A stretch of 38,659 nucleotides of DNA from Acidobacteriota bacterium (lineage in GTDB: Bacteria; Acidobacteriota; Terriglobia; Terriglobales; Acidobacteriaceae), in the NCBI GenBank assembly GCA_023265315.1, contig JAHFUA010000003.1:1-38659 (forward strand). The letters run 5' to 3'. Shown piece by piece: positions 8,073 through 35,913 of the stretch (its first letter is position 1; every line of letters starts with the position of its first letter). The notes below the pieces were generated by a model that worked only from the letters and a program-made list of their open reading frames with translations, made no database searches and was not told the DNA's origin. A program made the translations under genes and the position numbers.

Positions 8073-8798
8073 TCAGCCGACGACCGACGACCGAGAGCCG
8101 ACGGCTGCCTTCATCATCTCCGTCACGCTCACGAACTCGTAGCCCTGGTCCTTCAAGCGCCGGATCAGCCGATCGGTCGCTTCAACCGTGTGCGCGCGGT
8201 TTGCGCCCATGCGAAGGTGGCCGCCATCGTGCATCAGGATCACGTCCCCACCGCGGATGCGCCGGTTCACGCGCTGCTCGATGCCGTCCGCCGTGTGGAT
8301 CTTCCAGTCATTTGAGCTGACCGTCCACATCACCGGCTCGAGCCCCAGCTTGCGACCGACGCTCAGCACATGCGGCAGGCGCGCACCAAACGGCGGACGC
8401 CACAGCGTCGAATGCTCGCCCACGGTGTCTGCCAGCATCTTCCGGCATTGTTCGAGTTCGCTGCGCACCGTTGCGGCTGAGCAGAAGATCAGGTTGGGAT
8501 GGTTGAAGGTGTGATTGCCGATGGCGTGCCCGGCACGCGCCACCTCGCGCGCGATCTCCGGCTTGGCGGCTACGAATTTCCCGATCAGGAAGAACGTGGC
8601 TTTGACGCCGTGCCGGGCCAGCACTTCCAGCAGGCGAAGCGTGTGGGGATCGTTGGGGCCGTCGTCGTAGGTCAAGGCAAGCTGCCGCGAGCCGCGGCCG
8701 GCGCCCAGATATGTTCTTCCGTAGAGCTGCGACCGCGGCGCGTAGCAAGCGTAGCCTGCATAGCCGAGGGCGGCAGCGCCGATCAGAGGTCCGAGCAT
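8073..8798 (-). CDS. Polysaccharide deacetylase (CE4) family protein
   Basis: LTYDDGPNDPHT, VKATFFLIG, IGNHTFNHPNL, WRPPFGARLP: NodB-homology motifs. Confidence 0.93.
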   Translation of the reverse strand: MLGPLIGAAALGYAGYACYAPRSQLYGRTYLGAGRGSRQLALTYDDGPNDPHTLRLLEVLARHGVKATFFLIGKFVAAKPEIAREVARAGHAIGNHTFNHPNLIFCSAATVRSELEQCRKMLADTVGEHSTLWRPPFGARLPHVLSVGRKLGLEPVMWTVSSNDWKIHTADGIEQRVNRRIRGGDVILMHDGGHLRMGANRAHTVEATDRLIRRLKDQGYEFVSVTEMMKAAVGSRSSVVG

Positions 8799-19277: not shown

Positions 19278-19322
19278 GTTCACTGCTCCGGCTTGTCGGC
19301 GGCGAAATTCACGGAGGTCCCG

Positions 19323-20336
19323 ATGAAGCGCTTCGTGGCTGTTCTGCAGCTGGCATGCACCGCGAGCGCGGGGTCCCCAGCAAACCCGGCTTTGGTTTGC
19401 TGGGGTGGGAGCGCGTGGGCGCAGCACGACCATCACTCGATGGCCGCCATGAAGACCTCATCCGCAGCCCGGCTCGAGGTCCAGGACGATACCGTGGCGC
19501 AGGTGCTCACCCTCCGCGTGGGTCCGCTGAACCTGCCGGCAAACTCCAACCACATGGCGGTGGCGCAGGCGCCGACGGTTTTCCTGGAGATCCCCTTCGA
19601 TGGTTGGATCACGGCCTACCATCCCCGGCTGATGGACGGAGCCAGCCAGCCGGCGCCGAGCCGCTTGCTGCATCACGTCGCCTTCTACAACACCGCGCGC
19701 CCCGACTTCCTGTGTCCCAACAAGCAGGAGCACATCTTCGGCGCGGGCAGCGAGATGAACGACTGGCCCGCGCTCGCGGGCTTCGGCTATCGCGTATACA
19801 AGGGCGACCGCATCCGCGTCAGCACCATGTTCCACAATCCCACCGCGACCAGCTATCCGCAGACCTGGCTGGAAGTGAAGCTCGACTACCGCAGCGCCGC
19901 CAAAGGCGAGCCGCTCAAAAGCGTGTACCCAGCGTGGTTCGACGTGGGCGAGTGCGGAAACTCGGGATACGACCTCGGTCCCGGCAGAACTCTGAAGATG
20001 GGCGAATTCAAGCTGGGCTTCAGCGGCCGGCTGCTGGGAGTTGGCGGACACATGCACGATTACGGCCGGCAGCTTGACCTGTTCAACGTCACCCGCGGTG
20101 AGGACATCGCCGCGCTGAAAGCGCAACTCGATCCTTCCGGCAAGATCCAGGGCATGCCGGTCGTGCGCTTCACCGACCGCGGCGGCTACAAGCTGAGTAA
20201 GGGAGATGTGCTGCGGGTGAGTTCGATCTATGACAATACGCTCGGCAAGTCCATCCCCGAGGGCGCTATGGGGATCGTGGTGGGATATTTCCTGCCGGAC
20301 AACGACGCGGAAGTGGCGGCGCTGAAGAAGCAGTAG
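19323..20336 (+). CDS. Copper type II (PHM/DBM-like) monooxygenase-fold secreted protein
   Basis: LLHHVAFYN (HH) and GVGGHMHDYGRQL (HxH) arranged as in peptidylglycine hydroxylating monooxygenase-like proteins; Sec-type N-terminus. Confidence 0.65.
   Translation: MKRFVAVLQLACTASAGSPANPALVCWGGSAWAQHDHHSMAAMKTSSAARLEVQDDTVAQVLTLRVGPLNLPANSNHMAVAQAPTVFLEIPFDGWITAYHPRLMDGASQPAPSRLLHHVAFYNTARPDFLCPNKQEHIFGAGSEMNDWPALAGFGYRVYKGDRIRVSTMFHNPTATSYPQTWLEVKLDYRSAAKGEPLKSVYPAWFDVGECGNSGYDLGPGRTLKMGEFKLGFSGRLLGVGGHMHDYGRQLDLFNVTRGEDIAALKAQLDPSGKIQGMPVVRFTDRGGYKLSKGDVLRVSSIYDNTLGKSIPEGAMGIVVGYFLPDNDAEVAALKKQ
19375..19405. repeat. Perfect 12-bp-arm palindrome inside the signal-peptide coding region
   Basis: ccccagcaaacc (19375-19386) cggcttt ggtttgctgggg (19394-19405). 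Confidence 0.9.
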
Positions 20337-20692: not shown

Positions 20693-21778
20693 GTGGTGCC
20701 GCCGCTTTTTGGGGTGCAGCACTTCTCAAATCGGCTCGTGATCAACAGGTCCTGGGAGCAAGAGTTTCGGGCAGAAAAAGTTCTCGCGGCCACGCGGGTG
20801 CTGCTGGCTGCCGCATGGTTCGTCGCCGCGCTCGCGGCCCCCTGCCTCGCCCAGGAGGTGCATCCGATTCCGCTCACGGTCTTGCCGTGGAACGGGCACA
20901 AGGCCGCGGTCTCGCTGACGTTCGACGACGCCTTGCCGTCGCATCTTGATGTGGCGATGCCCGAGCTGCAAAAGCGCGGACTGCACGCCACCTTTTTCGT
21001 CGTCATCGCCAAGCTGCAACGGCTAGACGAATGGAAAAAGCTGCCCTCCGAGGCCCAGGAGATCGGCAATCACAGCGTCAGCCACGCGCGTCCCGCCGGC
21101 ATGGCCCCCGAACAAGAAGGCACGGAGGTCGAGGACGCGACCCATTTCCTGCAAGGCAACCTGGGTGTCCGGGCGCGGACGTTCGCCTACCCGTACAGCG
21201 AGATTACGCCGGGACTCAAGGATTGGGTGTCGAGATTTTGTTTCGCGGCGCGGACGGGCTTTACCGGGAACTATTACCTGGCTCCGGATTCTACGCCGGA
21301 CTGGTACGCCATCCCGGGCCAGCTTGCCAAGACGCAGACGCCACTGTCCGAATACCAGGGGTGGGTGGACAAGGATGTCGCTGCCGGGACATGGACGGTG
21401 TTTCAGATTCACGGCATTGGAGAGGCGCGCGTTGGGTACGAGCCGATCGCCCCGCAAACTTTCACGGCGCTGCTGGACTACCTCAAAGCCAAGCAGGCGG
21501 AGGGACTGTGGGTGGCCAGCTTCGGCGAGGTGGCGGGGTATTGGCGCGCGCAAAAGATTTTCGAGGGCGGCAAGCTTGTAACCCAAGCGCAGGGGGCGGT
21601 CATGCGCTGGGACGTGCCGCCGCAGTTTCCGAACGGGATTGTCCTGAAAGTGAAGGCGCCCGCCTACCTGCGCCTTTACCAAGGCGGCAGGCAACTGGCG
21701 GCCGACAATGGCGTGTACTCCGTCGCGTTGGACGCCAAGGCGCTGACCCTGGTGTTGGGGGAGAGCGATGGGAAGTAG
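20693..21778 (+). CDS. CE4 polysaccharide deacetylase-like protein with extra C-terminal domain
   Basis: GHKAAVSLTFDDALPSHLDVA, LHATFFVV, EIGNHSVSHA; GTG start after gggagg. Confidence 0.82.
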   Translation: MVPPLFGVQHFSNRLVINRSWEQEFRAEKVLAATRVLLAAAWFVAALAAPCLAQEVHPIPLTVLPWNGHKAAVSLTFDDALPSHLDVAMPELQKRGLHATFFVVIAKLQRLDEWKKLPSEAQEIGNHSVSHARPAGMAPEQEGTEVEDATHFLQGNLGVRARTFAYPYSEITPGLKDWVSRFCFAARTGFTGNYYLAPDSTPDWYAIPGQLAKTQTPLSEYQGWVDKDVAAGTWTVFQIHGIGEARVGYEPIAPQTFTALLDYLKAKQAEGLWVASFGEVAGYWRAQKIFEGGKLVTQAQGAVMRWDVPPQFPNGIVLKVKAPAYLRLYQGGRQLAADNGVYSVALDAKALTLVLGESDGK

Positions 21779-22793
21779 GCTCTGCGTGATAGTCCCGGCG
21801 AAGGACGAGGGCAGGGTGATCGCCCGCACCCTGCGGAGCATTCTTGCAGCCCGCGTTCTGCCCTCCGACGTGTATGTGATTGACGACGGCTCCAGCGACG
21901 GCACGGGCGAGATCGCGAAGGGGTATGGCGTCAACGTGATCCGCAACCAGCGGAACCTGGGCAAGGCAAATGCGATTGCCCGGGGGGTGCGGGAATTCAG
22001 CCTTGTCGACCGCTACAACATCATTTCGCTGATGGATGCGGATACGACGGTCAGCCAGAACTACTACGCCGAAGTCCGAAAGGGATTCGAGGACCCGGAG
22101 GTGGCGCTGGTTTGCGGCCGCGCCAAGAGCGTCCCCTACAACTGGCTCACGGCGTACCGCTGCTTCGGCTACTTCGTGACCCACTTCGTCTACCGGGGGG
22201 CCCAGAGCAACATGGGGGTGGTCAACGTCGCCCCGGGTTGCGCTTCCAGCTACCGCTCGGACGTGTTCCGCCAGCTCGACTGGAACCGCGACACGCTGGT
22301 GGAGGACATGGACGTGACCGTCCAAGTCCACAGGAAGGGGCTGGGCAAGATCGTCTACTGCCCGAAGGCGCGGGTTTTCACCCAGGACCCGCGCACCCTG
22401 CGCGACTACGTCAAGCAGATGTACCGCTGGTACACGGGCACCTGGCAGGTCGGGATCAAGTACCGGATTCTTCCCGGCTGGACCTGGCTGGACTGCGAGT
22501 ACAAGCTGCTGATGGGCGAGGGGCTGGTTTTCGCAAGCATGATGGCATTGACGCCGCTATGGCTGGCCCTGTGGCCGCTGCGCACACTGGCCGCTATGGG
22601 TTGCGACCTGCTCGTCACAACGGCGATTGCGGCACTCTGCGGGCTCATGGACAAAAGGTTCGACGTGGTCGCGGCGTCCCCGGCGTACCCGCTCATGCGG
22701 TTCGTGGATTGCGGGGTGCTCCTGTACAGCTTTTGGAAGACGGTGGTCCAACGGCAGAACGTGCAGAAGTGGTTTGCGGTGCAACGATACTGA
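21768..22793 (+). CDS. Glycosyltransferase family 2, membrane-associated
   Basis: LCVIVPAKDEGRVIARTLRSIL, VIDDGSSDGTGEIA, LMDADTTVS, LVEDMDVTVQVHRKGLG, QMYRWYTGTWQVG (QxxRW), C-terminal TM segments; overlaps upstream CDS. Confidence 0.92.
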   Translation: MGSRLCVIVPAKDEGRVIARTLRSILAARVLPSDVYVIDDGSSDGTGEIAKGYGVNVIRNQRNLGKANAIARGVREFSLVDRYNIISLMDADTTVSQNYYAEVRKGFEDPEVALVCGRAKSVPYNWLTAYRCFGYFVTHFVYRGAQSNMGVVNVAPGCASSYRSDVFRQLDWNRDTLVEDMDVTVQVHRKGLGKIVYCPKARVFTQDPRTLRDYVKQMYRWYTGTWQVGIKYRILPGWTWLDCEYKLLMGEGLVFASMMALTPLWLALWPLRTLAAMGCDLLVTTAIAALCGLMDKRFDVVAASPAYPLMRFVDCGVLLYSFWKTVVQRQNVQKWFAVQRY

Positions 22794-22818
22794 AAGGGAC
22801 TTAGCGGGAGAGAGGACT

Positions 22819-23688
22819 ATGAAAGCCAAGTTGTTCTGGCTCGCAGTGGCGGCGCTGGTATGTGTGGGGGCGTGGGCGCAAGACGGCCCGCCTCCGCCGG
22901 CGAAGGGCAGCGCCCTCGCCGTTCAAGCATTCCCGGGACAAGCGTGGACGTCGCTGGGCGATTCCAGCCCGGTCGAGCACGGGAACATCCAGTCCGAGAT
23001 CTACGCGGAGCAGGGCGTGACCGTTTTCAGCGCCCAGGGGGGCTCGTTCACCTTCACTCCCTACACGGCGTTGGAATTCAGCAACGATACTTACGGCTTT
23101 GCCTGGAACAACAAAGTTATCGTGCGGGCGGGCGGGAAGTTCAGCAAGCTCTTCCGCCACGGCATCGTGAGCGTGGGCGGCGGATACGCCTATGAGAACC
23201 GCTACAAGAACGACCCCAATATCGATGTCAACCTGCTCAACGGCACGCATGCCCTGCCCGCGTCCGCGGGTGCAGCCATCGGCTACGTTCAGGGCTGGTT
23301 CGGGTGGCAGCCTGTGGCCGACAGGCGGAGCCGGTACCCCGGCTCCCTGTGGTTCGCGGCCGGCAACATCGAGCCCGTCGAGCACGGCAACGTGATCGGC
23401 ATGGGCAACGTGCAGCAGGGCTTTGTGATGGCTCGCCTGGGGCGGGTCATCCTGATTCCCTACGCGGAACTGCGTCTGTCCGGCGACCTGCAAGGCTACG
23501 ACTGGGAAAACAAGGCCGCCGGCGGTGGCGGCATCAAGGTCGCGGTGCCCCGCGGCAATGCCTATACGGAGATCGGCGCGGGGGTGCGGCACGAGAGCCG
23601 CTTCCTCTCGGGCCTCTCGGCGAGCGGCGTCTATGTGTTCCTGAACACATCATTTAGCTGGGCCCTTTTCCACAAGAAAGGCAACTGA
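22819..23688 (+). CDS. Secreted, probable outer-membrane beta-barrel protein with internal duplication
   Basis: Signal peptide MKAKLFWLAVAALVCVGAWAQ; two repeats containing PVEHGN...PYAxL...YGFAWNNK/YDWENK...G(A/G)GxxxExR(Y/F). Confidence 0.7.
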   Translation: MKAKLFWLAVAALVCVGAWAQDGPPPPAKGSALAVQAFPGQAWTSLGDSSPVEHGNIQSEIYAEQGVTVFSAQGGSFTFTPYTALEFSNDTYGFAWNNKVIVRAGGKFSKLFRHGIVSVGGGYAYENRYKNDPNIDVNLLNGTHALPASAGAAIGYVQGWFGWQPVADRRSRYPGSLWFAAGNIEPVEHGNVIGMGNVQQGFVMARLGRVILIPYAELRLSGDLQGYDWENKAAGGGGIKVAVPRGNAYTEIGAGVRHESRFLSGLSASGVYVFLNTSFSWALFHKKGN

Positions 23689-23689
23689 A

Positions 23690-24226
23690 ATGTACGGCTC
23701 GGTTGGCGGCAGTATCTCCGGCGTCCTGCACATGGTGGCGAAGCGTCCGTACATCTCGGCGGCCATCGCAGTCCTGGCGTCGGTAGCGGTGGCAACATCG
23801 CTTGCTCCGCCACCGCCCCCAACCCCGCCGCCTCCCCCGGCTCCGATCGTGGTGGCGAGCGACGTGCCGTTCCTGGTCGCGCCGCCCGGGGTTCTGGGCC
23901 CGGCCCTGGCGACAACGAGGCCGGTACCGACCGTGGTGGGCTACTGTGATTTGGTCGGGACCGTCGTCAACAATGTCTGCAAGGCCCATTTGGATGACGC
24001 TGCCCTGCGCTTGCGCCGCGATCCCGGCTCCACGCTGGTGGTGAGCGGCACCCCGCGACGGGCCGCCAAGGTCAAGCGGTACCTGACCAGCGGCGAGGGC
24101 AAGGCCGGCATCGACCCGCCCCGGATCACGCTCAGCACCGCCGGCCGCAGCGGTGATATCGTCGAACTGGTGGTCGTGCCCGCAGGGGCGGCGCCGGCGT
24201 CCGCAGCAGCAGGATCGGGGAAATAG
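23690..24226 (+). CDS. OmpA-like C-terminal domain protein with TM and Pro-rich linker
   Basis: TM SAAIAVLASVAVATSLA, PPPPPTPPPPPAP, then CKAHLDDAALRLRRDPGSTLVVSGTPRRAAKVKRYLTSGEGKAGIDPPRITL: divergent OmpA-like. Confidence 0.6.
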   Translation: MYGSVGGSISGVLHMVAKRPYISAAIAVLASVAVATSLAPPPPPTPPPPPAPIVVASDVPFLVAPPGVLGPALATTRPVPTVVGYCDLVGTVVNNVCKAHLDDAALRLRRDPGSTLVVSGTPRRAAKVKRYLTSGEGKAGIDPPRITLSTAGRSGDIVELVVVPAGAAPASAAAGSGK

Positions 24227-24286: not shown

Positions 24287-25813
24287 CTATCGCTCGAACG
24301 TCTCGTTCACTTCCATGCGCCCATTCGACTCGACGGTGATGGTTTTGCGCACTGGCCTGTATCCGGTCAGGGTGAGGGTCACTTCGTAGGTGCCGGGACC
24401 GAGCAGGAATTCCGCCGGCGAGGCGCGGTCCATCATGCGCTGGTTGAACATTATCTGAGCGCCCTTGGGGAAGGTGCGCACCTGGACGCGCGCCGTGCCC
24501 TCCTGCCCGCCGCGGCCGAGCAGCTTCTTGAACTTGCCTACCTGCTTGATGTCGTCGGCGTTGCCCAGCGGCTTCAGCGTGGGCAGGAACTGAAAGGTTT
24601 CGCCCGGATTCAGCGCCATGCTGGCCGAGGTCTGGAGATATCCGGCCTTGCGCAGCACCAGCGAGTGGTTGCCTTGTCCCACCACGAGTTTTGCGGGAGT
24701 GACTTTGCCGGTGTCGCGACCGTCAATGATGATGGCAGCGCCCGGAGGCTCGCTGGCGATCGCGGCCACCGCCGCCAACTGGCCCAGGCTCACGGCCAGC
24801 GCGGCCCTGGTGCCGCCCTGGACCAGCACACTGCGCGATTCCACCGCGTATCCCGCCTTCGACAGCACCACCAAGTGCTGGCCGGGGCTGAGATTGGCCA
24901 GCGCGACCGGGGTGAGGCCGGCTCCCCTGCCGTCCACCTGCACCTGCGCGCCTTCCGGCACCGAATTGATGGCCAGCTCTCCCACAGCGAGCGCAGCGGG
25001 AGCGACCACTGCCTTGCGGCGCGCTTTGGCCGTTCTTGTCGCGGGCACGATCTGGATCGCCGTGGGCTGCGGCTCAGGCTCCGATACCGGCGACGCGGTG
25101 AGCGGATCGGGCATTGCCGTACCCATCAGCGGAGCCGCGGCTGCGGCTTCAGCTTCCGCCTGCATGCGGCGCGCGCGCACACCATCGGCGATCATGACGC
25201 TCACCATCACCACCAGCGCGGCGCCAATGACCCCGACCAGGATCTTGATCTGCTGGGGCGTGAGCGAGATCGGGCGGCTCGCAGCCGCCGCACGAGGCGG
25301 TGGTGGAACGATCGTCTCCCGCGCTTCACTGGGCGCAGCGGCCGCTGGCGCCGCCACTGCCCGCACCGAGCTCGTCACCCAGGAGGGTGTTGCCGGTGCG
25401 AGTTTGGCGGCGAAGCTCGGCGCTGGCTCGATTGGCGGCGCGCTGGGCGCCGCCGACGCAGAAAGTGTCACGCTGCCGAGGTTGGTGGACAGACCGGGGA
25501 TCATGGGCGACCCGGTTTCCAGGCGGGGCAGCGCAGGCGGCGGCACGTTGACCTGCGGAACGTTGATCTGCGGGACCCCCGGCAGGGACGGCCGGCTGGC
25601 CGTGCCGCACTCCGCTTCCAGTTCGCTCACCAGGTCTCCGGCACGCTGGAAGCGGTATTCCGGGTTCTTGGCCAGCGCCTTCATGATTACGCGGCTGATC
25701 CCGATCTGCACCGTGCGATTCAATTCGTTAGGCGCGGGCGGCATGACTTCCAGGATCTCGCGCTGCACGCCTGCCGCATCGCCATCCCCGAATGCCTTCC
25801 GGCCGGTCACCAT
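24287..25813 (-). CDS. PEGA-domain protein: C-terminal part of interrupted Ser/Thr pseudokinase
   Basis: MVTGRKAFGDGDAAGVQREIL...IMKALAKNPEYRFQRAGDLVSEL (end of kinase C-lobe), TM ILVGVIGAALVVMVSVMI, repeats INSVPEGAQVQVDGRGAGLTP, IASEPPGAAIIIDGRDTGKVTP (PEGA). Confidence 0.85.
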   Translation of the reverse strand: MVTGRKAFGDGDAAGVQREILEVMPPAPNELNRTVQIGISRVIMKALAKNPEYRFQRAGDLVSELEAECGTASRPSLPGVPQINVPQVNVPPPALPRLETGSPMIPGLSTNLGSVTLSASAAPSAPPIEPAPSFAAKLAPATPSWVTSSVRAVAAPAAAAPSEARETIVPPPPRAAAASRPISLTPQQIKILVGVIGAALVVMVSVMIADGVRARRMQAEAEAAAAAPLMGTAMPDPLTASPVSEPEPQPTAIQIVPATRTAKARRKAVVAPAALAVGELAINSVPEGAQVQVDGRGAGLTPVALANLSPGQHLVVLSKAGYAVESRSVLVQGGTRAALAVSLGQLAAVAAIASEPPGAAIIIDGRDTGKVTPAKLVVGQGNHSLVLRKAGYLQTSASMALNPGETFQFLPTLKPLGNADDIKQVGKFKKLLGRGGQEGTARVQVRTFPKGAQIMFNQRMMDRASPAEFLLGPGTYEVTLTLTGYRPVRKTITVESNGRMEVNETFER

Positions 25814-26392
25814 TTAATAGAGGATCGCGCCCCAGTTGAAGACATTCGAGCGCGCGTCGGGCGCACGCCCCTGCACTTGCTCGGGCGACAGGTAGCGGAG
25901 CTGGTCGCCGGTCTGGCCTTCGAGCGGGCCGGGATCGGGGGCGAAGTCCAGGATCTTCACCGTGCCGTCCCATTCGGTAAGGATGCCGTGGGGCGTCAGC
26001 CGGCGGTGGACGATGCCCTTGGAGTGAGCGTGATCCAGCCCGCGGCAGACCTGGCGCGAGATGTCGAGCAGTTCGCTGGAGGAAAACCCTTGCTGGGTAG
26101 CCAGCGCGGCGTCCAGGGGAACGCCCTCCACGTACTCCATGACCACATAGGCCAGGCCTTGCTCCTCAGCGCCGGCATAGATGCTCACGATGTTGGGGCT
26201 GTCGAGGACGCTCGCCGCCTTGGCCTGCTGCAAATACTGCCGGGAGCGCTCGATGGCTTGCGGGGTATCGGCGCACAGCACGCGCAGCGCCACCGTGCGC
26301 TTCTTTTTCGGGTCGTAGGCCTTGTAGACCGTGCCCAGCTCTGATTTTCCAATTTCGCGAACGACTTCGAAACGGCCGATGGCGGGCGTCAT
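25814..26392 (-). pseudogene. Ser/Thr protein kinase-like (pseudokinase) N-terminal part, ends at in-frame TAA contiguous with the downstream ORF
   Basis: GRFEVVREIGKSELGTVYKAYDP...VALRVL...HRRLTPHGIL...DFAPDPG...YLSPEQVQGR...NWGAILY-TAA-ATG GTG ACC; same frame as 24287..25813. Confidence 0.75.
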
Positions 26393-34536: not shown

Positions 34537-35913
34537 ATGCACAGTCCAAACCTACCTGGCACCATGCGGCGCAGTTCACGGGTGCCCATGACCATGCCCA
34601 TCACCATCACCAGCCTGGAGCCGGCGGCCCAGGTCTTTGAAGTCTGCGAGACGCTGGTGGTCAGCGCGCACGGCTGTGCGATGCGTTCGCCCATTCAGCT
34701 GGAAGCCGGCGCTCTGCTGCAGTTTCGGGTCAAGGATGGACGGCAGACCACGGCCCATGTGGTGGACTGCCAGCCCATCGGCTCCAACCAACCGGGCTGG
34801 AGGCTGGCCGCCGGGCTGGATCTCCCGGGGAACTTCTGGGGACTGAGCTCCTGTCCTGATGATTGGATGCGGTTGACGGACATGCCTTCCGCCGGCAAGC
34901 CCCTGCCGCTTCCCGGCAACAACGCTGCTATGCCCAAGATGCCCATGCTGAGGGCCCTGGTCGCCGATATGGTTGAGCCGTTGCAAGCGGGACTGGCGGA
35001 TCTGGAAGAAAGGCTGGTCCTGCAAAGAGAACGCAATCGGTTTGAGGTTTCGCTGTCGCGCATCCCTCCCGAAGTCGAAGACAGGCTGTGGATGCGCCTG
35101 CGGGAGGAACTGGGTGCGCAAGCCCTGCGACAAACCCGAGAGCAGGCGGACAAGGTGCTGGGTGCGGCGCAATCCGCCATCGAGCTGAAGATCACCGAAG
35201 CCCAGGAAGAGTTTCGGCACTGGGTTCGAGAACAACTGCAAGTCGTCGAGCAGCACGTGCTAGCTTTGTCGGAGCAGACCGCGGATGAGCTGCGGCAGCA
35301 GCTTGGAGCCGCCAGCGCGGCGTTCGAGCAGCAGGCGTCGGCCGCGGGCGCCCGTCTTGGGCAGCAGGGCGCGGAGTCCCTCGAGGCCTTGCTGCAGCGT
35401 CTGGGAGAGGAGCGCGAAGCGCACCGCCGTGAGCTGGAAGCAGTGCAGGTTGCGGCTGCCTCGGAATCCTCCCGCCTGCAAGCGCAGCTCACCGAGATTG
35501 GCCGCCGCATGGCGGAGCTGGACGAGGCTGCCCACCGCCTCGAGTCCGGCCTGAACACCCGGCTGATACGGATGGCCACCGAGACCGTGTCCGGGGTCCG
35601 TACCCAACTCCAGAGCGCCGCCGATTCGATATGCGAGAACCTGGCAGCGCGCAATGCCAAGGAGCTGGAACATCAGCTCGATGAGGCAACCGCACGATTG
35701 AAGAGCATCCAGAACGAGATCGAAGTCTTCGTTTCCGAATCGGCGAAAACCAATGTCTCGGAAGCTCTCCAGGGTTTCGAGAAGACGATGAACGAGTCGG
35801 CGCAGCGCTCCGTGGGACGTTGGCGCGTGGCTCTGGCGCGCGACTTGAATTCAGTCGCCAACATCCTGGGCGAACACTTCCGCTCGGCGGAGGCCGACAG
35901 CGGCGAAAAGTGA
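34537..35913 (+). CDS. N-terminal PilZ-like domain plus long coiled-coil protein
   Basis: RRSSRVPM (RxxxR-like) and VVSAHGC (xSxxG) in N-terminus; residues about 150-440 rich in heptad-like Glu/Gln/Ala. Confidence 0.6.
   Translation: MHSPNLPGTMRRSSRVPMTMPITITSLEPAAQVFEVCETLVVSAHGCAMRSPIQLEAGALLQFRVKDGRQTTAHVVDCQPIGSNQPGWRLAAGLDLPGNFWGLSSCPDDWMRLTDMPSAGKPLPLPGNNAAMPKMPMLRALVADMVEPLQAGLADLEERLVLQRERNRFEVSLSRIPPEVEDRLWMRLREELGAQALRQTREQADKVLGAAQSAIELKITEAQEEFRHWVREQLQVVEQHVLALSEQTADELRQQLGAASAAFEQQASAAGARLGQQGAESLEALLQRLGEEREAHRRELEAVQVAAASESSRLQAQLTEIGRRMAELDEAAHRLESGLNTRLIRMATETVSGVRTQLQSAADSICENLAARNAKELEHQLDEATARLKSIQNEIEVFVSESAKTNVSEALQGFEKTMNESAQRSVGRWRVALARDLNSVANILGEHFRSAEADSGEK

Follow-up and report, generated by a model that had tools for sequence, protein, structure and literature searches.

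The four-gene locus described here, which lies within the window (the whole 38,659-nucleotide stretch of Acidobacteriota DNA that was analysed), is best explained as a synthase-dependent exopolysaccharide machine whose type has apparently not been described before, a reading to which we give a probability of roughly one half. A literature search returned no description of such a locus, which is no proof of absence. Counting towards this reading are the pairing of a GT2 glycosyltransferase with a nameless beta protein (gene 3) in both Acidobacteriota and CPR, usually with a CE4 deacetylase nearby in Acidobacteriota, the processive motifs and nearest models of the GT2, a gene 3 model with alternating strand faces that resembles outer-membrane barrels, a GH16 enzyme common to loci of both groups, and Omp85 in the window's own genome (G000).

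All four genes are on the forward strand and encode a CE4 polysaccharide deacetylase (20693-21778, GTG start), the GT2 (21768-22793), gene 3 (22819-23688, ATG start) and a small membrane protein, gene 4 (23690-24226). The CE4 and GT2 genes overlap by 11 nt, and gaps of 25 nt and 1 nt separate the GT2 from gene 3 and gene 3 from gene 4, so that the co-directional, tightly packed arrangement with an overlapping first pair described in the first-pass annotation holds in every respect. Just 5' of the locus, a 347-aa protein (19293-20336, forward strand) has no Pfam match; its His/Met motifs are, on visual inspection, reminiscent of copper type II monooxygenases. A second CE4 deacetylase is encoded about 12 kb from the locus (8073-8798, reverse strand), with a Pfam match of 120 bits that is stronger than that of the locus CE4, and a possible c-di-GMP receptor, whose PilZ match is marginal (23.0 bits vs. 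a cut-off of 22.5), lies about 10 kb away (34537-35913, forward strand). The Ser/Thr kinase encoded at 24287-26392 (reverse strand) has PEGA repeats; its gene is interrupted by a single in-frame TAA at 25814-25816 (GAILY*MVTGRKAF) and its halves appear as neighbouring ORFs, so that the gene is either truly broken or affected by a sequencing error.

The CE4 protein begins with a signal or anchor segment, matches PF01522 (E 6.7e-19) and has the motifs TFDD, NHSVSH (NHSxxH) and a late FQIH. The GT2 matches PF13641/PF00535 at E ~1e-24 (PF13641, E 3.4e-24). Its processive-type motifs DDGSSDGTG, DAD, ED and QMYRW and its C-terminal transmembrane (TM) segments are all present, as first noted, and QxxRW and ED are invariant among the GT2s compared. 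By hydropathy, all 14 GT2s examined share a 0+3 topology, with no N-terminal TM segment and about three at the C-terminus. The best NCBIfam match of the GT2 is TIGR03937 (PgaC_IcaA), at 81 bits against a cut-off of 422; NodC is also among the nearest models, and there are distant matches to chitin synthases in the PDB. The AlphaFold model of the GT2 (pLDDT 54) is too poor to judge a processive fold.

With gene 3 alone as the query, nine of the 398 genomes sampled from the window's family yielded homologues, and the same GT2 (52-61% identity) lies 0-43 nt 5' of gene 3 at all ten loci of these nine genomes. A CE4 gene is within about 5 kb of the locus in 8/9 carriers, and the CE4 orthologues in Acidobacteriota loci with gene 3 are 46-52% identical to that of the window. 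This co-occurrence of gene 3, GT2 and CE4 across relatives bears out the earlier view of the gene set as a conserved unit. In a phylum-wide sample of 396 genomes gene 3 was found only in the window's own; no relatives were recovered from viral contigs (queried with gene 3 and its alignment) or from a plasmid collection. The locus is conserved but rare. Fuller Acidobacteriota loci also contain genes for GH16 enzymes (G047, G165, G242), a galactose-oxidase-like copper enzyme (PF09118 in G047; locus homologues in G165, G242 and G151), an M48 peptidase-like protein and a TonB_C protein. PF09118 is present somewhere in the genomes of all eight other carriers, with no match in the window's genome, and the window thus carries a minimal form. 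In G125, a 491-aa ORF with no Pfam match occupies the position of the CE4 and overlaps the GT2 start (L027:5570-7045, forward strand). The GT2 gene of G151 is broken into two ORFs of 243 and 94 aa (L018:1971-2996 / L023), probably by a frameshift or sequencing error.

The gene 3 protein has a signal peptide-like start followed by two repeats, each of ~110-125 residues. Repeat 1 (22933-23316; FPGxxWxxxGxxSPxExGN...DTxGxxWNN...GYxYExR...WFGW) and repeat 2 (23335-23667, placed by internal alignment) share the pattern PGxxWxxxGxxSPxExGN, DTxGxxWNN, YExR, WFGW. The duplication, which the first-pass annotation had proposed for a barrel protein, is real because the two halves align with each other at E 2e-14 (32% identity across 92 aa), and the repeats are in register in every double-repeat homologue. 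Conserved W, E, K, R and D residues occur among the homologues. Searches of Pfam, NCBIfam and PDB sequences with gene 3 gave no match, and gene 3 profiles gave only chance matches to PDB sequences. An assignment to NfrA_C (PF13283) was rejected: neither gene 3 nor its homologue in Candidatus Kaiserbacteria has a Pfam match, and PF13283 was absent from 100 genomes including the window's own, with a positive E. coli control.

The AlphaFold model of gene 3, built on six sequences (mean pLDDT 70.9, pTM 0.67), has 12 main strands, of which eight measure 13-14 residues, and predicts with medium confidence that the protein folds as a 12-strand barrel. Foldseek matches of this model in the PDB include autotransporter barrels, OmpG, the KdgM/VhGalP oligogalacturonate porins and PgaA (4y25, E 1e-3); the top matches are all outer-membrane barrels, as are nearly all of those listed, with TM-scores of about 0.3-0.6. 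A fold search of BFVD likewise returned mainly generic outer-membrane barrels. Hydrophobic/polar alternation in the strands exceeds that of permuted strands (the observed value was reached by 23 of 2000 permutations for Acidobacteriota and 1 of 2000 for CPR), a property that by itself does not discriminate a membrane barrel from a soluble one. The earlier suggestion that the third gene encodes a secretion pore therefore stands in part: the protein models as a beta-barrel of outer-membrane type, while a pore specifically in the outer membrane sits poorly with homologues from CPR genomes in which no Omp85 is detectable, three of which have TM-LysM anchors.

These CPR homologues came to light in a genome-contig search with gene 3, through a Candidatus Kaiserbacteria contig on which GT2, CE4, gene 3 and gene 4 are consecutive and which bears chromosomal housekeeping genes (infC- and rplT-like, by eye). 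The gene 3 and GT2 pair occurs in 5 of 384 CPR genomes sampled from the class of the Kaiserbacteria genome; a second sample, of 380 genomes from its phylum, recovered that genome alone. The GT2 is paired with gene 3 at all five CPR loci, gene 4 is present in four carriers, and CE4 genes are in the locus in two and elsewhere in the genome in the other three. In three carriers (L035, L036 and L037) the gene 3 part is preceded, within a single fusion protein, by a TM helix at the N-terminus, a LysM domain (Pfam E 1e-6 to 1e-7) and a Pro-rich linker. The fifth locus, L038, has the order CE4, GT2, GH16, repeat, and encodes a single-repeat gene 3 homologue of 145 aa and a GH16 that is 46% identical to the GH16 of the Acidobacteriota loci. 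At the related loci L035:9042-11964 and L036:9090-11756, genes for a small TM protein, a histidine kinase-like protein and a response regulator-like protein follow the cluster at its 3' side in identical order (by eye). One further weak CPR match (G1478, E 4.5e-5) was discarded as a chance match; it falls inside an apparent ABC-type substrate-binding protein and has no adjoining GT2. In the gene 3 tree, Acidobacteriota and CPR form two clearly separate groups (100/98). The GT2 tree has long branches and does not resolve, so that the trees do not show the direction of any gene transfer.

Omp85 had no match in any of the five CPR carrier genomes, whereas seven control genomes were positive and the window's own genome gave two matches; the absence is persuasive mainly because it extends to all five, the completeness of these genomes not being given. 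The presence of Omp85 in the window's genome implies that this organism is able to build an outer-membrane barrel. CPR cell envelopes are poorly characterised, and the few described are monoderm (PMC8871954), so the lack of an outer membrane in CPR is a presumption. The homologues in CPR suggest a module that can also sit on the wall or the cytoplasmic membrane.

Gene 4 has no Pfam or NCBIfam match, nor does its C-terminus alone match the Pfam OmpA family. The part common to relatives is the N-terminus, ~M-Y-x-P-G-x-G-S-x-S...H-L...P-x-V-x-A and then a hydrophobic segment; in the window this TM stretch (MYGSVGGSISGVLHMVAKRPYISAA..., 23690-23803, forward strand) is shared with the CPR loci and is followed by a Pro-rich linker. 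Directly 3' of gene 3, the pattern was found in the window, in G242, G424 and G125, and at four CPR loci (loci besides the window with the pattern after the beta-protein gene: L024, L025, L026, L020, L035, L036 and L037); in the G047/G052/G165 group no such gene was seen adjoining gene 3. The G125 protein consists of the TM stretch and a Pro-rich tail, 62 aa in all. The first-pass label "OmpA-like" captures a weak likeness: residues 93-168 of the window protein (23966-24193) share ~50% identity with part of Acidobacteriota proteins of ~550 aa, and one of these alone has a sub-threshold PF00691 match (E 0.003) in the corresponding region. The label goes no further than this, given the missing Pfam match and a loop, expected to bind peptidoglycan, that by eye is shortened in gene 4. 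The OmpA-like tail of the window's copy is a local, degenerate addition, and the proposed role as a peptidoglycan tether is not upheld, the tail being variable among relatives and the TM stretch being what they have in common. Since the GT2 lacks an N-terminal TM helix in 14/14 sequences, it is a reasonable guess that gene 4 is a membrane partner of the synthase.

In the machine that we propose, the GT2 would polymerise a sugar, probably an N-acetylated aminosugar, and feed the chain across the inner membrane, with the gene 4 protein possibly supplying the helix that the GT2 is missing, the N-terminal TM helices of PgaC-type enzymes being absent from it. The secreted CE4 would then strip acetyl groups from the polymer outside the cytoplasm, and the predicted 12-strand barrel of gene 3 would pass the product outward across the outer membrane. 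In relatives, the GH16, copper radical oxidase-like, M48 and TonB-like proteins may trim, oxidise or help assemble the product. Outward passage via gene 3 is the weakest step of this scheme, although an outer-membrane pore would fit both the model and the diderm Acidobacteriota. Counting against the machine as a whole are the 12 strands of the model, compared with the 16-18-strand barrels of outer-membrane translocons in synthase-dependent systems (PMC9601211), and the lack of the TPR part that several of these carry; the barrel model itself (pLDDT 71, six sequences), the homologues in CPR genomes with no detectable Omp85, of which three are TM-LysM fusions, the low TM-scores to outer-membrane barrels (about 0.3-0.6) and a 0+3 topology with few TM segments for a chain-translocating synthase also weigh against it.

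Instead of a pore, gene 3 might be a glycan-holding or wall-embedded surface domain that binds the GT2 product and either anchors or guides this polymer on the cell surface, tethered by TM-LysM in CPR and secreted free in Acidobacteriota. We regard this as possible, if somewhat doubtful. The TM, Pro-rich linker and LysM fusions of L035, L036 and L037, the Omp85 result (0/5 CPR genomes vs. seven positive controls, with two matches in G000), the single-repeat 145-aa version in L038 and the conserved W, E, K, R and D residues all favour it; however, the meander strands, which are long and amphipathic, and the model look like outer-membrane barrels, as nearly all listed Foldseek matches attest, and the absence of an outer membrane in CPR is presumed for envelopes that are poorly characterised (PMC8871954). 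A bolder and rather improbable variant keeps the barrel in both groups: in CPR, lacking Omp85 and probably an outer membrane, an outer-membrane-type barrel tethered by a TM helix and LysM would form a wall-spanning polysaccharide conduit, the same module would be an outer-membrane pore in Acidobacteriota, and a GT2 with a small TM partner would serve both.

The 0+3 topology of the 14 GT2s would also suit a non-processive enzyme that transfers single sugar residues to a lipid carrier, in the manner of polyprenyl-phosphate glycosyltransferases whose TM part is C-terminal, in which case the locus would decorate a surface glycan made elsewhere. This is unlikely in view of the invariant QxxRW and ED, the place of PgaC/IcaA and NodC among the nearest models, and deacetylase and GH16 partners that fit a polymer. 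That the locus is a divergent PNAG (Pga/Ica) locus, as the combined CE4 and GT2 logic and the top NCBIfam rank of PgaC_IcaA might suggest, we consider highly improbable: the PgaC_IcaA score is 81 bits against a cut-off of 422, the PgaD, PgaB hydrolase fusion and TPR-porin components are missing, gene 3 has no sequence relation to PgaA, and the partner genes are others (GH16, copper oxidase, M48).

A barrel-like protein without a family stays linked to its putative synthase in two distant groups, one of them apparently without barrel-assembly machinery. The locus opens to direct testing how polymer exits CPR cells, about whose surface glycans little has been learned, and whether an outer-membrane-type fold can be used without an outer membrane, and it provides a small, well-delimited gene set for a polymer of soil Acidobacteriota.

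As the first-pass annotation had argued, the set fits no known Pga, Ica or Nfr system, and by the tests run the locus belongs to none of them. It resembles PgaABCD and IcaADBC (poly-beta-1,6-GlcNAc) in its CE4 and QxxRW GT2 and, for Pga, in an outer-membrane barrel that is predicted here, and this resemblance is functional only. Its GT2 falls under the PgaC/IcaA cut-off and lacks an N-terminal TM segment, the partner genes differ, and the modelled barrel has 12 strands in two repeats, not 16. No PgaD- or IcaC-like partner and no PgaA TPR-porin was found in the locus, judging from the missing Pfam/NCBIfam matches of genes 3 and 4 and inspection of the ORFs at 17.5-28 kb, in agreement with the contrast to PgaABCD drawn at the outset. 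NfrA/NfrB (NGR glycan, PMC8669472) likewise combines a GT2 with a separate export barrel, a putative one in the window, but gene 3 is not NfrA_C and has no TPR part, the GT2 has no MshEN-like domain, and a CE4 is present. With CslA-GlxA of Streptomyces the fuller relatives share a GT2 synthase and a copper radical oxidase; the available part of the source (PMC11022532) gives CslA seven predicted TM helices, cellulose as product and an oxidase coupled to the synthase gene, and describes no barrel-like protein, while the window's genome has no PF09118 match. The EpsX/EpsY composite OPX/beta-barrel translocon (PMC9601211) has 18 strands, a Wzx/Wzy pathway and an OPX partner, no gene for which was seen adjoining the window locus; it offers the likeness of a stand-alone barrel without a TPR part that has been proposed as a polysaccharide exit. 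Outer-membrane pores have 16-18 strands in the small number of synthase-dependent systems known, and the pore gene tends to disappear from bacteria that lack an outer membrane (PMC9601211, PMC7112194); among Gram-positive bacteria, pore genes are the ones lost most frequently (PMC7112194). In the present case, the barrel-like gene has been retained.
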